The translations under genes were made by a program, and so were the position numbers. From contig AP017968.1 of NCBI GenBank assembly GCA_002356455.1, forward strand, positions 3,100,001 through 3,164,000: a stretch of 64,000 bases of DNA, written 5' to 3'. The notes beneath the pieces are model-generated. The model ran no database searches and had not been told where the DNA came from. It saw only the letters and a list, made by a program, of their open reading frames with translations. The DNA comes from Fusobacterium varium (GTDB taxonomy: Bacteria > Fusobacteriota > Fusobacteriia > Fusobacteriales > Fusobacteriaceae). Below are positions 55,188 through 63,924 of the stretch, piece by piece (position 1 is the stretch's first letter; each line of letters opens with the position of its first letter).

Positions 55188-55688
55188 TTAATTTAAAATC
55201 TTTATTTCGCTCACATAATGATTATGTTTATTTATTTTTGCCATTAAATACCCTTTTTCCTCATCTATAAATATTTTTTCTACTTTCCCTTCATATATTT
55301 CTCCATTTGTACAAACTTTTAAACTTTTTTTATTTTTTTCAAAAGAGTTTATGCATATAATTTTTTCCCAAAATAAAATAGATTCTCTAACAAATGGTTG
55401 AAGAACAGCATATTCAGAAAAAATTTTTCTGATTTTTTCTGAATCATTTTTTCCATCTATTTTTTTGCTCAATTCTTCATAGTAAATTTTATTTGTCTTA
55501 TTTAAGTTAAATTGAAGATATTCATTTTTATTAAATTGAATATCACAATAACAATTTAAATTTTCTCTTGAGAATTTCAACAAAATTTCATTACAAAGTT
55601 TTTCTTTTGTTATGTCAAAATGTTTTTGATCTTCCTTTAAAGTCTTTAATACGAACTCAGGAACTGCAACTTTAATTTTTTCTTTCAA
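55188..55688 (-). CDS. Putative DNA-binding regulator of the adhesin operon
   Basis: This 166-residue protein was not assigned to a family. The first 45 residues (VAVPEFVLKTLKEDQKHFD, then KEKLCNEILLKF) have a strand-helix-helix pattern like RHH proteins, and the C-terminal 60 residues form a small beta-rich domain that loosely recalls a WYL domain. It is the first minus-strand gene, 61 bases before the coiled-coil gene, and an 11-bp dyad sits just upstream of it. Autoregulation and control of the adhesin operon are inferences from position. Confidence 0.5.
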   Translation of the reverse strand: MKEKIKVAVPEFVLKTLKEDQKHFDITKEKLCNEILLKFSRENLNCYCDIQFNKNEYLQFNLNKTNKIYYEELSKKIDGKNDSEKIRKIFSEYAVLQPFVRESILFWEKIICINSFEKNKKSLKVCTNGEIYEGKVEKIFIDEEKGYLMAKINKHNHYVSEIKILN

Positions 55689-55709
55689 AATTTTCCTCCC
55701 AGATCATAA

Positions 55710-55750
55710 ATTAAAACTTATATTCAGAATAAAACTTTTTAAGTTTTAAT
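55710..55750. promoter_or_regulatory. Dyad at the start of the adhesin locus
   Basis: ATTAAAACTTA (55710-55720) and TAAGTTTTAAT (55740-55750) are perfect 11-base complements with a 19-base gap; a further AAAACTT lies between them. It overlaps the promoter region of the regulator gene and is a likely operator. Confidence 0.5.
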
Positions 55751-56431
55751 AGTATTATTATACTTTATTTTATCTTTTTTAATAATACAGGTAAATTCTA
55801 ATTTTTAAGTTCTATTTTATGGATATTTTTTTTATATTTTTATCTGTAAAAAATAGCTTGATATAAATTATTATTAATAATTTTAAAGAATATTATCAAA
55901 AAAAATTATATTATTTTTTAGAATAAATTTCATAAAATTAGTTCTTGATTTTTCAAATGCTACATATTATATCAACATATAAAAAAACGATAATTTCCTA
56001 TAATTCTACAAAATTTTATCAATATAAATAGTATATTTTTATATTTCTTTTTATATATCTAATAAAATCCAATAAATATTATCATAATTAGAACACTTTT
56101 ACAACATAATAAATTTATATTTATTCTTTATTTTTCAAGTAATAAAATAGTATCGACTGCGTTCAATATTTTTTTCTTCAAAAATATATAAATAAATTTT
56201 ATTTTTTTATATAATTTCAATTTTCACTAAAATTAATCTAGTCCAATATATATGATAAAAATAAACTTGAATTTTTAATTTGAATATAGTAATATTTAAC
56301 TTAAGTTGTTTTATATTAAAAAAAAATATCCATGGAATTTTTAAAAATTTTCTTTAAATATTTAAGTAACTTTTCCAAAAGCTTTTGAAAGACTTTGACA
56401 TAGAATACTGAATTTACTAAGGAGAGTTAAA
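55751..56431. other. Long AT-rich spacer between adhesin locus and recombinase
   Basis: About 680 bases with no credible gene. Several short AT-rich dyads are present (AACTTAAGTT at 56298-56307, and AAATTATTATTAATAATTT-type sequence near 55867). A GC-containing 12-base palindrome, CAAAAGCTTTTG, lies at 56376-56387, followed by a TTGACA at 56395 in front of the recombinase gene. No clear long inverted repeat that would mark an invertible segment was found by eye. Confidence 0.6.
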
Positions 56432-57028
56432 ATGGATAAAAGAGGGCAAGAAGTTAGATACATAAATTCTGATGATTTAGTACAAATAAGAAACTATTTT
56501 AAAAATAATAAAAAAGTAGTAATACTTTCTTTAATAAATATAGGAGTAAATGTTGGATTGAGAATTTCTGATCTTTCCAAATTAAAGTTTGAAAATATAA
56601 ACCCTGATTATACAATAAAATTAAGAGAGAAGAAAACAAAAAAAATACGAAAAATAAAATTTAATTTAGTCTGCCAAAAAGCAATTAGAGATTTAAAGGA
56701 ATATTATGAAGGATTAGGTTATTCCTCAGAAAAAGGATTTTTATTTAAATCCTTAAATAGAAAATATGTAAAAGAATTATATGATAAACCTCTTTCTAAT
56801 GTTGGCATTTCTAAATACCTAAACAAAGCAAAAAAAGATTTAAATATCAGTTATCCCATTGGAACTCATTCTCTAAGAAAGACTTGGGGACATAGGGTTT
56901 ATAAAGGTACTCTTGATATAGCAGTAGTGATGTCTATTCTCAATCATTCTTCAGCAGAGCAAACATTAAAATATATTGGAATAGATGAAGACCGAACAAA
57001 TGAAATTTATGAAAATTTTAAAATTTAA
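56432..57028 (+). CDS. Tyrosine recombinase of FimB/XerD type, catalytic domain only
   Basis: This 198-residue recombinase consists only of the catalytic domain. The active-site set is complete: Arg44 in NVGLRISDL, a lysine in the REKKTKKIRKI hairpin, His146 and Arg149 in THSLRKTWGH, His172 in LNHSS, and the nucleophile Tyr181 in TLKYIGI. It lacks the N-terminal core-binding domain of phage integrases. FimB and FimE, which flip the fimbrial promoter in E. coli, have this size. It faces away from the adhesin operon across a 740-bp spacer. Site-specific inversion or excision nearby is possible. The GGAGAG site before the ATG supports this start. Confidence 0.82.
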   Translation: MDKRGQEVRYINSDDLVQIRNYFKNNKKVVILSLINIGVNVGLRISDLSKLKFENINPDYTIKLREKKTKKIRKIKFNLVCQKAIRDLKEYYEGLGYSSEKGFLFKSLNRKYVKELYDKPLSNVGISKYLNKAKKDLNISYPIGTHSLRKTWGHRVYKGTLDIAVVMSILNHSSAEQTLKYIGIDEDRTNEIYENFKI

Positions 57029-57072
57029 TATAGAACAGATATTAAATTAAAATTTTACAAAAATTATTTCAA

Positions 57073-57118
57073 GGCACACTTTTAATGATTAAGTATTATT
57101 AAAAGTGTGTCTTTTTTT
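57073..57118 (+). terminator. Terminator after the recombinase
   Basis: GGCACACTTTTAAT pairs with ATTAAAAGTGTGTC and is followed by seven T. Confidence 0.88.
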
Positions 57119-57204
57119 AATAATAAAAAAATGATATAATAAATATATTATTTTATACATTTTAATTATGAAAAATACTTTATAAATATATCAAGGAGGA
57201 AATT

Positions 57205-58308
57205 ATGAGAATAAGTATTGTAATACTTGGAATTATTTTTATGCTGATTTCTACATTTTCTTATGCCTGTACAGGAGTAACTATAAAAACTAATACTGAT
57301 AAAATGATTCAAGCCAGAACAATAGAGTATGGAGAGGGAGATTTAAATAGTGAGATTGTCATATCACCTAAAGAAAAAGAGTTTCAATCTTTAACTCCTG
57401 ATGGAAAAATGAATGGGCACAAATGGAAAGCAAAATATGGTTTTGTTGGAATTGCCATTATCTCAGATTTATTTATAGGAGAAGGTATTAATGAAGCTGG
57501 ACTCAATGCAGGACTTTTTTATTTTCCACATTATGGAAGCCTTACAAAATACAATGAAAAAATTTCAAAAGAATCTGTAACAGATATGCAGCTAGTGACT
57601 TGGATACTTTCTAATTTTTCAACTGTTGATGAAGTAAAAGAAGGACTAAAAAAAATTAAGGTGGTAAATATAGGAAATGATAAAAATGGTCTTCCTTTAC
57701 CTACAGCACACTGGAGAATTGCAGATGCTTCTGGAAAAAATATAGTTCTTGAAATAATTAATAATGGAGAGGTTAAGATATATGATAACGAAATAGGAGT
57801 TTTAACAAATTCCCCTGATTATGAGTGGCATTTAAAAAATTTAAATAATTATATTAATCTTTATTCAGGAAATGCAAAAGATTATACTATGAACAATCAC
57901 AAAATATTTTCATTTGGAGCTGGAACTGGAGCTTTAGGCCTGCCAGGAGACATAACACCTCCTTCAAGATTCATCAGAGCTTTTTATTATTTAAATACAA
58001 TGAAACCTGCAAATACTTCCTTAGAAGGAATACAAGAGGCTTTCCATATTCTAAATAATTTTGATATCCCTATTGGAGCTGAATATCCTTTGGAGCACAA
58101 AGAAAACATACCTGATAATCTCTTAAGTGCAACTCAATGGACATCAGTATGTAATATAAATGATAAAGAATTTTATTATAAAACTATGCACAATAGCCAA
58201 ATAAGAAAAATAGATTTAAAAAAAATAGATTTTTCAAAGACAAAATATCAGATACTTCCTTTAGATAAAAGCTTTGAAGAAAGTATTTCAGAAATAGATA
58301 TAAAATAA
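57205..58308 (+). CDS. Secreted choloylglycine hydrolase/penicillin-acylase-family amidase
   Basis: This 367-residue Ntn-hydrolase has a signal peptide whose removal after Ala21 would expose the nucleophile Cys22 (SYACTGVTIKT). Other family residues are Arg38 in QARTIEYG, the Asn in VLTNSPDYEWH, and the Arg in GLPGDITPPSRFIRAFYY. Gram-negative members are periplasmic; they cleave bile-salt conjugates, penicillin V or acyl-homoserine lactones. Which of these is the substrate cannot be decided here. It stands alone between two terminators, with AAGGAGG before the start. Confidence 0.88.
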   Translation: MRISIVILGIIFMLISTFSYACTGVTIKTNTDKMIQARTIEYGEGDLNSEIVISPKEKEFQSLTPDGKMNGHKWKAKYGFVGIAIISDLFIGEGINEAGLNAGLFYFPHYGSLTKYNEKISKESVTDMQLVTWILSNFSTVDEVKEGLKKIKVVNIGNDKNGLPLPTAHWRIADASGKNIVLEIINNGEVKIYDNEIGVLTNSPDYEWHLKNLNNYINLYSGNAKDYTMNNHKIFSFGAGTGALGLPGDITPPSRFIRAFYYLNTMKPANTSLEGIQEAFHILNNFDIPIGAEYPLEHKENIPDNLLSATQWTSVCNINDKEFYYKTMHNSQIRKIDLKKIDFSKTKYQILPLDKSFEESISEIDIK

Positions 58309-58431: not shown

Positions 58432-59640
58432 ATGCAAATCAAACATATTATCTCTAAAATCAATATAACAAATCTTTTAGGTAAAATCAAGAAATATTTT
58501 AAAAATGAACATTTTGAGGATGTTAAACAGACTATTCAAAAATTCTTAGCTTGTTCTATTGATAAATCTTTTCTCTCTCTTCAATGCCCTAATTGTCATG
58601 AGGCGCATAAAATTAAAGTTACTTGTAAATCTAGATTTTGTCCTTCCTGCGGTAAACGTTATTCTGCTGTTTGAACTGAAAAAACTTCCACTTCTCTTAT
58701 TGATGTTAAACATAGAAGTGTCCTTTTTACTATTCCTGAAGAACTTAGAATGTTTTTCTTCTATGATAGAGACCTTTTAACTAAGCTTGCTTATGCTGTT
58801 AATGATGTTTTTAAATATCAATTTCATAACATTAAAGCAAAAAATCAAAGAATTCATAAAATTTCAAAATATTCCTCTAAATACTTTACTAACTCAGATA
58901 TCATTCATTATGGATTGATTACTGTTATTCATACCTTTGGACGCGATCTTAAATGGAATCCTCATATTCATGCTATTGTTACTTTAGGTGGATTCAATAA
59001 AAACTACCAATTTCTTGAAAAAAAATATTTTCATGTCAATTCCATTGCTGGACAATGGAAAAAAATGGTTATTGATATTGTTAAATCTGGAAATTATGAC
59101 AAGCCTGAAATTAAAGCTAAAGCTTATGCTGCTGCTAACTACCTTTATCGCAAAAATACAAGATTCTTTTTCAATGTTGCAAAAAATGATTTAAATAATA
59201 ATATTCATGCAATTAAATATATTGGCAGATATCTATCAAGAGCTCCTATCGCAGAATATAAAATTATTGATTTCTATGATAATAAGGTTACTTTCTATTA
59301 TGAAAGTCTTGCTGATGATAAACAAAGAATTGAACTTACTTTAGATGCGGAAACATTTCTTTCCAAATTAATTATTCACATTCCCCCTAAACATTTCAAA
59401 ATGATTAGGCGCTTTGGAATCTATTCTAGAAATATTAAATCAGAACTTAAAAACATCATGAAATTCATGAGAAAATATGTCTCTAAATATTCCAATTTTA
59501 CTTTTTATCAACTTGAAATATGGAAAACTTTTGGAGTAAATCCTTTTTATTGTTTTAAATGTAATACCAGAATGAAAGTTAAAAAAATATCATATTTTAA
59601 TATACATACAGGCTCCATTTGCTGGAAAGAATATCGCTAA
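58432..59640 (+). pseudogene. IS91-type transposase broken by a TGA codon
   Basis: One continuous 402-codon frame shows the IS91 layout. There is an N-terminal zinc finger (LQCPNCHEAHKIKVTC, then SRFCPSCGKRYSA), and the catalytic part contains HxH-type WNPHIHAIVTLGG and the tyrosine region ALKYIGRYLSRAP-like (AIKYIGRYLSRAPIAEYK). Codon 81 at 58672-58674 is TGA; in the normal frame KRYSAV is followed by a tryptophan, so a single TGG to TGA change explains it. Both halves have otherwise intact coding sequence, indicating a recent loss. The element's ends could not be placed. Confidence 0.85.
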
Positions 59641-60571: not shown

Positions 60572-60749
60572 GTTCTCTTTAATGTATAAAGGCGAACTTT
60601 TACATGTTTTAACTTTATCAATTATAATCTCTAAAATTGATAAAGTCAAGATAAAAATATTTTTAGGGAAAATATCCTTAAAAAAATGACCCCCTGTAAA
60701 TAAAGTAATTACGACTATTTTATGTTCGCTTTTATACATATAAGAGAAC
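60572..60749. repeat. 178-bp element bounded by 26-bp inverted repeats
   Basis: The left arm (60572-60597, beginning GTTCTCTT and ending GCGAAC) is the complement of the right arm (60724-60749, beginning GTTCGC and ending AAGAGAAC) with three mismatches. Between them lies a perfect 12-base stem (ACTTTATCAATT at 60612 with AATTGATAAAGT at 60635) and a further TTTTTA/TAAAAA pairing. The element ends 88 bases before the start codon of the second autotransporter. It could be an invertible regulatory segment, a miniature transposable element or a structured leader. Confidence 0.7.
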
Positions 60750-60837: not shown

Positions 60838-63800
60838 ATGATTAAAGAAATGGAGAAAGCTTTAAAAAGATATCTCAAGGGAAAGAATAGAATAACAATG
60901 GGAGTGGTAGTAGCTTTTTTACTGGGAAACAGTTTTGCATTTGGAGATGTTACGATAAAATATGATACTGCAGCTTCAACTCTTATTGTACAAGATGATT
61001 CAGGAACTAATATAGGAACAGTAACAAAAAATCCTGCTGGTAAATTTACCTGGACAATACCAGAAGGAACAGATATAACTGAAACTGTAAAAATAGATGA
61101 TACAGTAAATGCAAATAATATTAAAGTAAATATAGTGAATAGTGGAAATATAAGTGGGAGCAGTACTGGTGGAGATAAATCAGGAAATGGAATTTATTCT
61201 TATTCTGAAAAAGGAGCTAATACAATAGGAAATATAATAAATAGTGGAACTATAACTGGTAGTACTACTGGTCGTGGAGAGAGTTCAGGAAATGGAATTT
61301 ATTCTAATGGTAATGAGAGTAAAATAGGTGATATAATCAATAATGGAATAATTAGTGGAAATGGTCTTGGTAGTAGTAGCGGAAATGGAATTTATTCTAG
61401 TTCTTATAGTTTTTATCTTTTCCCCATAGAGAATAAAATAGGTGATATAATCAATAATGGAATAATTAGTGGAAATAATAGTGGAAGTTATCCAGGAAAT
61501 GGAATTTATTCTAGTTCTGGTGCTGCTAGTTCTACTGCAAAGAACAAAGTAGGCAACATAACGAATTATGGAATAATTAGCGGAAATGGTGGTAATCAAG
61601 GATATGGAATTTATTCTTATTCTAATTCTGATTCATCAATAATAGAATCAATTTCGAATTCTGGTGTTATAATGGGAAGTCAAAATGGAATATATATTAA
61701 AGGAGATTCTAGTTCAAAGATTGATAAATATAGCAATTATGGACTTGTAATAGGACAGACACCAGTCAAAATTGAAGGTGGCGGAACAGTAAACACTCTA
61801 AAAGAACAGGGAATGGCTATAACTCTTGATGGAAGTGGAGATATCACTTCTATTGCTTCAGGAACTGGAGGAAGTACAGGAATATATTCTATAGTGAATA
61901 CTCAATTAAGAGATAATTTAGGAAGCACAGTATCATCTGGTGCAGTAGATTCATATGATGTATATACAAGCGACCAAAGTATTTCAGATACTATTATCAA
62001 TGGTGCTGGTGTAAATAGTGGAACAGTGACAATAGAAGCAGATAAGAATTTTTCACTTAATGGCGGAATTATTAATGCCTATAAAACTGCTGTTACAGTT
62101 AAAGATGGAGCTTCATTTACTGGTACAGATGTAACAATCAATGGTGGGGGCTTAGATAAAACTACTCCTGTTATTTCTGGAGATTCAGGAGCTAATACAG
62201 TAAATATATCTGGAAATTCTTTTATCAATGGAAAAGTTGATTTAGAAGATGGAGATGATACTTTATCTATTGGAAATTCCACTCAAATCAATGGAGATAT
62301 AGATGGTGGAACAGGAACTGATACTCTTTATTTTGGTTCAGCTATTGCCAGAGCAGTGGGAAATGATAATATAAATCTTTTCCATAAAATATCAAATGTG
62401 GAAGAAATAAATATAAATCAAAAAGTAACTGCATTTGAAACTTCTGAAATTACAGGAGCAGATAAGATTAATATTGGTAAAAATGGGGAGCTTGTATTAA
62501 GAATAGATGGAACAAATAGTAATAAACATGCACTTTCCAATGGAAATAGTAGTGGAACAATAGATTCAGATGGTGGAAAACTTCTTCTTGCGCTTAATGG
62601 AGTATCTGATGGAAGTACAATAGATATGGGAATGAATCTTGGAGATGGAATATATGGAGTGGAAAATCCAGACATAGAATATAGAGATTTATTTACTTTA
62701 GATACAACTTCATATTTACATTCTATTAGAAAAACTCCTGGTTCTTCAACAATAACAGTTGAAACTAAATCTACACTTCCACTGTCACCAACAACACCTG
62801 AATATACAAATTATGGGAAATTAAATAAAATATATCAAAGTATGAGGGTTGTAGATGGTGTAAAAGAATTTAATGTAGATACTGATGAAAAATTCTCATC
62901 TTTTATGGGATACTTAAATGATATCTATGCAGGAAATCCATACTCATATTCTTCTGAACTATCAAGAAAATCAATGGGAATGTTCAGAGATATAGCTACT
63001 GAAAATTCATTTAAAGCAGATACAGGAAAATGGATGATATACGGCGGACTTACTCATATAGATGGAGGAACTAAAGATACATACTATGGAAAAGGATACT
63101 ATACTTATGATATAGGAAGTTCTGATATAGATTCTGATACAAAAATCACAGGAGCATATATGCTTGGAGAGTATGGAGTATCTGATGACTTTAAAGCTGG
63201 AGTGGCAGTTGGAGGAAACAAGTTTAAATCTGACTTGTCTAATGGCTCAAAAGTTGATGGAGATGCGCTGTATATTGGAGGATATGCTAAGAAGTATCTT
63301 GGAAATCTAAAAGTAACAGCAGGAGCAGGATTCCAGTATGGAGATTATGATGCAGACAGAACAGCAGCAGGAAGAGAAATTACAGAAACAAGAAGCTATT
63401 CTTCAAGCTACAATGATTTGACTTATGATATTTATCTGAATGGAAGATATTCACTTAATATTGGAGATAATCTATACTTAGAACCTTATGGAACACTGTC
63501 ATATACATATGTAAAACAGGATGGAGCAGATGAGGGAAATAAAACTTTAGCAATAGAAACAGATTCACAATCATTTGACTACACAGTTGGAAAAATGGGA
63601 ATAGATCTTAAAAAAGTGATACCACATGAAAAAGGAAAGAGTACATTATCAATTGGAGCAAGCTATACAAAAATACTTGATGGAGCAGATGAGGAATATA
63701 TCACAGGAAGATTTAAAGGTGGAAGCGACTTTGATATATTAGTTGCCCACAAGAATGAACATAGCTTAGGATTGAATGCTAAATATGCACTTGAACTGGA

Positions 63801-63924
63801 AAATGGAATCTTGTTTGATGTAAAAGGAAGCTATGCAATAGAAAGAGATTCACATAATCAATCTGGAAAGAATAAAACTGAAGGTGAATGGATAGTTGGA
63901 GCAGGGCTGGGTTATAAGTTCTAG
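60838..63924 (+). CDS. Type Va autotransporter, 1028 residues
   Basis: The long signal sequence starts with charged residues (MIKEMEKALKRYLKGKNRI) and ends near FAFG, the same style as the giant autotransporter. The passenger begins with Asn/Gly/Ser-rich solenoid repeats of the form IGDIINNGIISGN and SGNGIYS. From about residue 740 a classical autotransporter barrel follows (KWMIYGGLTHIDGG, then AYMLGEYGVSDDFKAGVAVG), ending in GLGYKF with the terminal Phe. It is probably an adhesin; no protease or lipase motif was seen. AAGGGGGAGAGG lies before the ATG. It is followed 21 bases later by an HU-like gene. Confidence 0.9.
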   Translation: MIKEMEKALKRYLKGKNRITMGVVVAFLLGNSFAFGDVTIKYDTAASTLIVQDDSGTNIGTVTKNPAGKFTWTIPEGTDITETVKIDDTVNANNIKVNIVNSGNISGSSTGGDKSGNGIYSYSEKGANTIGNIINSGTITGSTTGRGESSGNGIYSNGNESKIGDIINNGIISGNGLGSSSGNGIYSSSYSFYLFPIENKIGDIINNGIISGNNSGSYPGNGIYSSSGAASSTAKNKVGNITNYGIISGNGGNQGYGIYSYSNSDSSIIESISNSGVIMGSQNGIYIKGDSSSKIDKYSNYGLVIGQTPVKIEGGGTVNTLKEQGMAITLDGSGDITSIASGTGGSTGIYSIVNTQLRDNLGSTVSSGAVDSYDVYTSDQSISDTIINGAGVNSGTVTIEADKNFSLNGGIINAYKTAVTVKDGASFTGTDVTINGGGLDKTTPVISGDSGANTVNISGNSFINGKVDLEDGDDTLSIGNSTQINGDIDGGTGTDTLYFGSAIARAVGNDNINLFHKISNVEEININQKVTAFETSEITGADKINIGKNGELVLRIDGTNSNKHALSNGNSSGTIDSDGGKLLLALNGVSDGSTIDMGMNLGDGIYGVENPDIEYRDLFTLDTTSYLHSIRKTPGSSTITVETKSTLPLSPTTPEYTNYGKLNKIYQSMRVVDGVKEFNVDTDEKFSSFMGYLNDIYAGNPYSYSSELSRKSMGMFRDIATENSFKADTGKWMIYGGLTHIDGGTKDTYYGKGYYTYDIGSSDIDSDTKITGAYMLGEYGVSDDFKAGVAVGGNKFKSDLSNGSKVDGDALYIGGYAKKYLGNLKVTAGAGFQYGDYDADRTAAGREITETRSYSSSYNDLTYDIYLNGRYSLNIGDNLYLEPYGTLSYTYVKQDGADEGNKTLAIETDSQSFDYTVGKMGIDLKKVIPHEKGKSTLSIGASYTKILDGADEEYITGRFKGGSDFDILVAHKNEHSLGLNAKYALELENGILFDVKGSYAIERDSHNQSGKNKTEGEWIVGAGLGYKF
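61321..61476 (+). repeat. In-frame repeats in the passenger
   Basis: A 42-base unit starting AAAATAGGTGATATAATCAA occurs without change at 61321-61362 and 61435-61476, 114 bases (38 codons) apart. Weaker copies lie on both sides. Recombination between them would change passenger length without a frameshift. Confidence 0.75.

Follow-up and report, generated by a model that had tools for sequence, protein, structure and literature searches.

A probable invertible promoter in front of an autotransporter gene of Fusobacterium varium and the family of sites to which it belongs

We analysed a stretch of 64,000 nucleotides from Fusobacterium varium (GenBank assembly GCA_002356455.1, contig AP017968.1, positions 3,100,001 to 3,164,000 of the forward strand; hereafter the window), in which a segment at 60572-60749 lies in front of an autotransporter gene. 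This segment is very probably an invertible promoter (inverton). In the mechanism that we propose, a tyrosine recombinase, most likely the enzyme encoded at 56432-57028 together with an identical second copy, would bind two inverted 26-bp (base pair) sites and exchange strands inside their identical 6-bp centres, flipping the ~150-bp stretch that separates them. As sequenced, the segment's single strong promoter would fire away from the autotransporter gene (OFF); inversion would place it ~138 bp before the ATG, and the autotransporter would be transcribed (ON). The same enzyme probably serves ~30 elements before autotransporter, polysaccharide and outer-membrane-protein genes, which would result in combinatorial phase variation of the cell surface. 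We infer from sequence that the window copy flips, that the enzyme flips it and that orientation sets expression.

The element and its family of sites

The window element consists of a distal (left) recombination site on the plus strand at 60572-60597 (GTTCTCTTTAATGTATAAAGGCGAAC) and a proximal (right) site on the minus strand at 60724-60749, with an overall span of 178 bp. The right arm is the reverse complement of the left at 23 of 26 positions. In the left site the half-sites GTTCTCTTTA and AAAGGCGAAC surround the centre ATGTAT (60582-60587), and the right site carries the same centre in inverted orientation (60734-60739). This is the sole 26-mer inverted repeat with at least 22 of 26 positions paired at such a span in the window, and six dinucleotide shuffles of the window contained none that was comparable. 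The element stops 88 bp upstream of the start codon (60838) of its target gene, which encodes an autotransporter of 1028 amino acids (60838-63924, plus strand; Pfam Autotransporter, 5.6e-29), and is thus a short intergenic segment bounded by inverted repeats in front of a gene. An earlier reading made from the letters of the window (the sequence-only reading) had described the arms, their three mismatches, the span and the distance to the ATG, all of which we confirmed. It had also described a perfect 12-base inner stem, ACTTTATCAATT / AATTGATAAAGT, which is indeed present. The stem is no defining part of the element, because it overlaps the minus-strand promoter described below (-35 at 60644-60649, -10 at 60621-60626) and other subfamilies do not conserve it.

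A 201-bp stretch that includes the window element has 11 further copies at 83-98% identity in the F. varium genome, along with more diverged ones. In the close copies (the window and these 11) both flanks are conserved as well, as far as the autotransporter signal region. Because homology extends through both flanks, the close copies are duplicated whole loci and not scattered insertions. This finding bears on a suggestion of the sequence-only reading, namely that the segment is a miniature inverted-repeat transposable element (MITE), which would have been spread by a transposase acting in trans. The ~12 copies at 83-100% identity scattered over one genome, with their terminal inverted repeats, are compatible with a MITE. 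The conserved flanks are not, and elements with unrelated inner sequence have only the sites and a promoter in common; moreover, the centres match within elements and not between them, and the insides of some elements are reversed between fixed flanks (see below). We rejected the MITE, for which we see next to no chance, on the grounds that the flanks of the close copies are homologous, without the unrelated insertion sites and target-site duplication that would mark such an element.

We compared the source genome (G000) with those of three congeners that contain sites (G001, G002 and G007); L-numbers denote individual loci fetched from these and related genomes. A degenerate 26-bp site pattern gave 81, 75, 46 and 60 matches in the four genomes, respectively, and its reversed version gave none in the same genomes. 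No sites were found in viral contigs. Each site has two inverted half-sites (GTTCKCTTT) flanking a 6-bp centre (positions 11-16). The search for other copies of the arm returned ~30 inverted pairs in the source genome, mostly beside surface genes, and ~100 pairs over the four genomes. The site score alone picked out 86 inverted pairs among the fetched loci, and 10 with divergent half-sites were added afterwards; sites that first seemed single (GTTCTCATTATTGTAATAATGCGAAC) have a partner with divergent half-sites ~193 bp away.

The centres take 14 forms over 71 distinct pairs, such as ATGTAT, ATATAA, ATACAT, ATCTAT and ATGGAT, and in 70 of the 71 both arms carry the same centre. When partners were permuted (2000 trials), the mean number of pairs with identical centres was 12.6 and the maximum 24; since the copies are mutually related, this figure should not be taken as a strict probability, but the difference between positions is unaffected by that relatedness. 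At half-site positions 5, 6 and 7 the agreement between arms is at chance level, and at position 20 it is barely higher. We read matched centres combined with chance-level half-sites as the signature of tyrosine-recombinase sites rather than of an RNA stem or a MITE, because the crossover region must match only at strand exchange, whereas an RNA stem would co-vary throughout. A tyrosine-recombinase site is expected to have two inverted binding half-sites around a crossover region of 6-8 bp that is the same in both partners, and the present sites, with their 6-bp centres, have this architecture.

The same data decide against another proposal of the sequence-only reading, a structured 5' leader; such an RNA, or an attenuator, would have the arms paired in one long stem. 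The arms are complementary and placed before the gene, and the 6-bp centres co-vary like base pairs. Co-variation is restricted to the centre, however, with positions 5, 6 and 7 pairing no better than shuffled partners; the sole strong promoter fires the opposite way, and insides are reversed in sister loci. No Rfam family came near its gathering score at the window element, where there were only sub-threshold chance matches. As the position-wise permutation gave no whole-stem covariation, we rejected a structured leader as the main function of the segment and consider it very improbable.

The sole exception to the matching of centres is L086 (G001:1564473), with the centres ATACAT and ATCTAT. 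Its neighbours carry exactly these two centres, and L086 probably arose as a hybrid when tandem autotransporter loci recombined; the element may be locked. Two loci of the source genome differ from the window copy in their outer arm bases while the inside is unflipped: in L015 (G000:1739892) these bases are exchanged between the arms, and in L014 (G000:1677255) they have been made identical in both. These arms hint at repeated inversion or at conversion between arms.

Promoter direction and reversed insides

Within the window element, a near-consensus sigma-70 promoter (TTGACT-N17-TATAAT) lies on the minus strand at 60621-60649, with the -35 hexamer at 60649-60644 and the -10 hexamer at 60626-60621, facing away from the autotransporter gene. 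After inversion the -10 hexamer would lie on the plus strand at 60695-60700 and end 138 bp short of the ATG. As the segment now stands, its only strong promoter points away from the gene, into ~5 kb without a minus-strand gene (there is no minus-strand open reading frame (ORF) of at least 80 amino acids between 55689 and 60571), and the adhesin of the window should be OFF.

The arrangement recurs throughout the family. A near-consensus promoter (TTGAxx-N17-TAxxAx, a pattern that was refined after the data had been seen) occurs on exactly one strand in 68 of the 86 elements and on both strands in none, the expectation from shuffled insides being 2.0. Thus a promoter is present inside the segment, on one strand, as judged from sequence rather than from transcript mapping. 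Where an autotransporter-size ORF follows, the promoter points away from it in all 16 elements scored in the source genome and in 47 of the 48 scored in the four genomes together; the one that does not, L058, has a reversed inside. Promoters facing the gene (ON), which occur in relatives, were seen in L058, L097 and L116. The L097 gene resembles a polysaccharide chain-length protein by eye, and a related protein has no Pfam match; L116 is a sugar-transferase locus.

Loci were compared after turning each so that its gene stands on the right, using flanks of 200 bp and scoring the alignments as z. For L106 and L108, which belong to one genome, the flanks align directly (z of 13.7 and 42.8), whereas the inside aligns when flipped (z of 27.8) and not directly (z of 1.6). 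The inside of L106 is likewise reversed relative to L083 and L056. That of L058 is reversed relative to seven siblings (z of 12.5-17.5 flipped, ~0 direct), all of which agree with one another. The clearest case is the polysaccharide locus L116 compared with L115 and L117, all from G002, with flipped z scores of 30.7 and 27.8, respectively, and direct scores of ~2.7. Here the inner half-sites, GTTCTCATT and GGACGCC, trade positions along with the inside, and the outer half-sites remain where they are. This places the strand exchange in L116 within the 6-bp centre, TTGTAA. From the reversed insides and exchanged inner half-sites of these relatives we predict that the segment inverting in the window is 60582-60739, with the crossover inside both centres. 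Across the family both orientations occur, by way of sister loci of relatives, whereas the 12 close copies of the window's own subfamily all face one way.

In G007, L078 and the loci L063, L067 and L068 have flanks that are 92-98% identical and insides that are only ~82% identical and reversed. The inside of L078 seems to be diverging, or being exchanged, faster than its flanks.

A candidate recombinase and the case against inversion

The candidate invertase, which would act in trans, is a core-only tyrosine recombinase of 198 amino acids encoded on the plus strand at 56432-57028 (Pfam Phage_integrase, 1.1e-21). Residues R44, H146-x-x-R149, H172 and Y181 are invariant in eight orthologues and paralogues and line up with XerA/XerC-like structures, and a lysine-rich stretch (K67-K71) is located where it is expected in a recombinase; the protein thus has the catalytic R, K, HxxR, H/W and Y of the tyrosine recombinases. 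The XerC and XerD models gave 45.6 and 41.5 bits, respectively, against cut-offs of 335 and 330, which places the protein outside the XerC/XerD (dif) group. A second, identical copy of the recombinase is present elsewhere in the source genome.

Site matches number 85, 100, 47 and 90 in G000, G001, G002 and G007, and between 0 and 2 in 37 other relatives. Among the 41 genomes surveyed, orthologues of the recombinase at 74-100% identity are found in exactly the four site-rich ones. In G001, 100 site matches go along with one intact close relative of the recombinase, the orthologue of the window enzyme (90% identity); such a single intact copy for 100 matches suggests action in trans. We regard the window recombinase as the likely invertase of these sites. 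Matched centres, reversed insides, one strong promoter per element and the co-occurrence of the recombinase all support the proposal of the sequence-only reading that the segment is invertible. That reading had also drawn attention to a small recombinase 4 kb away. The gene is there, but its closeness is probably due to chance, because the intact recombinase genes of the other genomes have no site nearby; of the other recombinase genes, only a degenerate copy, L157, has one beside it. Around the enzymes of two more distant species that are 45-51% identical (L162 and L163), there was no obvious site family.

The second copy of the recombinase is part of a larger duplication. Window positions 55188-58308 recur at G000:3237238 and contain the recombinase, a divergent protein of 166 amino acids of unknown family, and a gene of the choloylglycine-hydrolase family. 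Both the recombinase and the 166-residue protein are 100% identical between the two copies, and the 166-residue protein gene accompanies the recombinase in G001 and G002, too. At 58432-59640 the window contains two ORFs that together make up an IS91-type transposase (Zn_Tnp_IS91 and Y2_Tnp domains); the gene is probably broken.

Several observations weigh against an active switch operated by this enzyme. All 12 close copies in the source genome, the window and 11 others, are oriented alike, and the subfamily thus shows no flipped member. An exact search of a genome collection, which may omit the source genome, for the flipped junctions of the window subfamily returned nothing. A weaker promoter-like match (TTTACA-N18-TATAAT, 60599-60628, plus strand), which shares the ATTATAAT palindrome with the minus-strand -10 hexamer, faces the gene in the present orientation; it was found in the window subfamily only, and basal expression of the autotransporter from it is possible. 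To these points must be added the refinement of the promoter pattern mentioned above. Finally, the link to the recombinase is one of co-occurrence among four related species, and alternative enzymes exist.

The uniform orientation and the forward promoter-like match would suit a formerly invertible promoter that is now locked. On this view the family inverts elsewhere, but the window subfamily is fixed OFF, or its genes are transcribed from the weaker forward promoter, and whole autotransporter cassettes were duplicated to spread it. Conservation of the flanks on both sides fits such a history, as do the mismatched centres of the relative's L086. We nevertheless consider it improbable. Both window sites are intact, their centres being the same and their half-sites conserved; the source genome holds two identical copies of the likely recombinase; and the OFF state is common to all 16 autotransporter elements scored there, irrespective of subfamily, which an OFF-biased isolate would be expected to show. 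A rather less unlikely alternative, though still a minority view, is that the segment does invert and that the responsible enzyme is a 76% identical paralogue (G000:1631168), a plasmid-borne relative or a housekeeping Xer protein. The source genome has several tyrosine recombinases, and most recombinase genes lack a site nearby. G001, with its 100 site matches, has no such paralogue, however, its sole intact close relative being the orthologue of the window enzyme, and the more distant family of ~190-residue proteins is present also in genomes without sites.

Target genes, known systems and significance

In the source chromosome an element or site stands in front of 17 of the 26 shorter autotransporter genes, and in front of none of the 15 giant RadD-like ones (~3,100-3,600 amino acids), including the window's own. 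Further targets, as identified by Pfam, are sugar transferase loci (Bac_transf), an MBOAT O-acyltransferase, an outer-membrane beta-barrel protein, a glycosyltransferase 9 and a GGDEF protein. This target list is one of surface antigens typical of phase variation. The element L025 (G000:268521) sits 339 bp before the gene of a CHASE-GGDEF protein, and cyclic di-GMP signalling may therefore be phase variable, too.

A common invertible element with the centre TTGTAA is found at L115-L121, L028, L049 and L090 (in G000, G001, G002 and G007). These loci encode a bacterial sugar transferase of 436-453 amino acids, except L118, in which no such ORF was found. Among the three polysaccharide elements of G002, L116 is ON and the other two are OFF, as if a single polysaccharide type were expressed at a time.

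Extending the scheme to the whole group, we tentatively propose, at slightly less than even confidence, that one trans-acting recombinase in the F. varium/ulcerans group operates a genome-wide set of ~25-50 invertible promoters that control autotransporters, polysaccharide loci and porin-like proteins, and that the diversified 6-bp centres are an address code favouring inversion within an element over rearrangement between elements.

The mechanism is of a known kind, the invertible promoter; what makes the present case notable is its phylum, its scale and the diversity of its crossover sequences. The multiple invertible promoters of Bacteroides (Mpi and Tsr recombinases) are distributed genome-wide before surface polysaccharide and protein genes and are served by one recombinase in trans, Mpi being a serine recombinase with one site sequence. 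The F. varium family, by contrast, is of the tyrosine type, has at least 14 centre sequences and autotransporters as its main targets, and belongs to a different phylum. The nearest known system in function is the ipuS switch with the autotransporter UpaE, the site sequence of which is unrelated to the F. varium sites. In uropathogenic Escherichia coli CFT073, ipuS is an invertible promoter before the UpaE operon that is acted on by tyrosine recombinases (PMC6083910). It resembles the window element in bearing a promoter and preceding an autotransporter gene, and the tyrosine recombinases that flip it include some that act on several switches; unlike the F. varium family, it is proteobacterial and one of three switches in its genome, as opposed to ~30. 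The RecV switches of Clostridioides difficile are similar in that several short segments share a tyrosine recombinase and have surface genes among their targets (PMC2784873, PMC7446863, PMC9286219), but their site sequences and targets are different and the elements fewer. Invertons catalogued by read mapping are likewise short, intergenic and bounded by inverted repeats, and they carry promoters next to surface genes (PMC5903667, PMC11892184). Fusobacteria are absent from the positives of a 2018 survey that covered 13 phyla (PMC5903667) and go unmentioned in a 2025 study, at least in its main text (PMC11892184). Our searches of open-licence full texts turned up no description of invertible promoters in Fusobacteria, although supplementary lists of other surveys may contain some of these loci.

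F. varium Fv113-g1, a patient isolate, is reported to have 44 autotransporters, most of which are of unknown function (PMC5720691), and the source genome probably belongs to this isolate. If most of the shorter autotransporters are indeed parked OFF behind promoters that can flip, published expression profiles and adhesin repertoires of these fusobacteria capture a switching population in just one of its states, and surface antigens can differ between colonies of a single strain. By promoter flipping, cells could vary their surface adhesins at random. This would be a large and directly testable phase-variation system in a phylum associated with the gut and with disease, for which the enzyme and the sites can be named and the state of each locus predicted.
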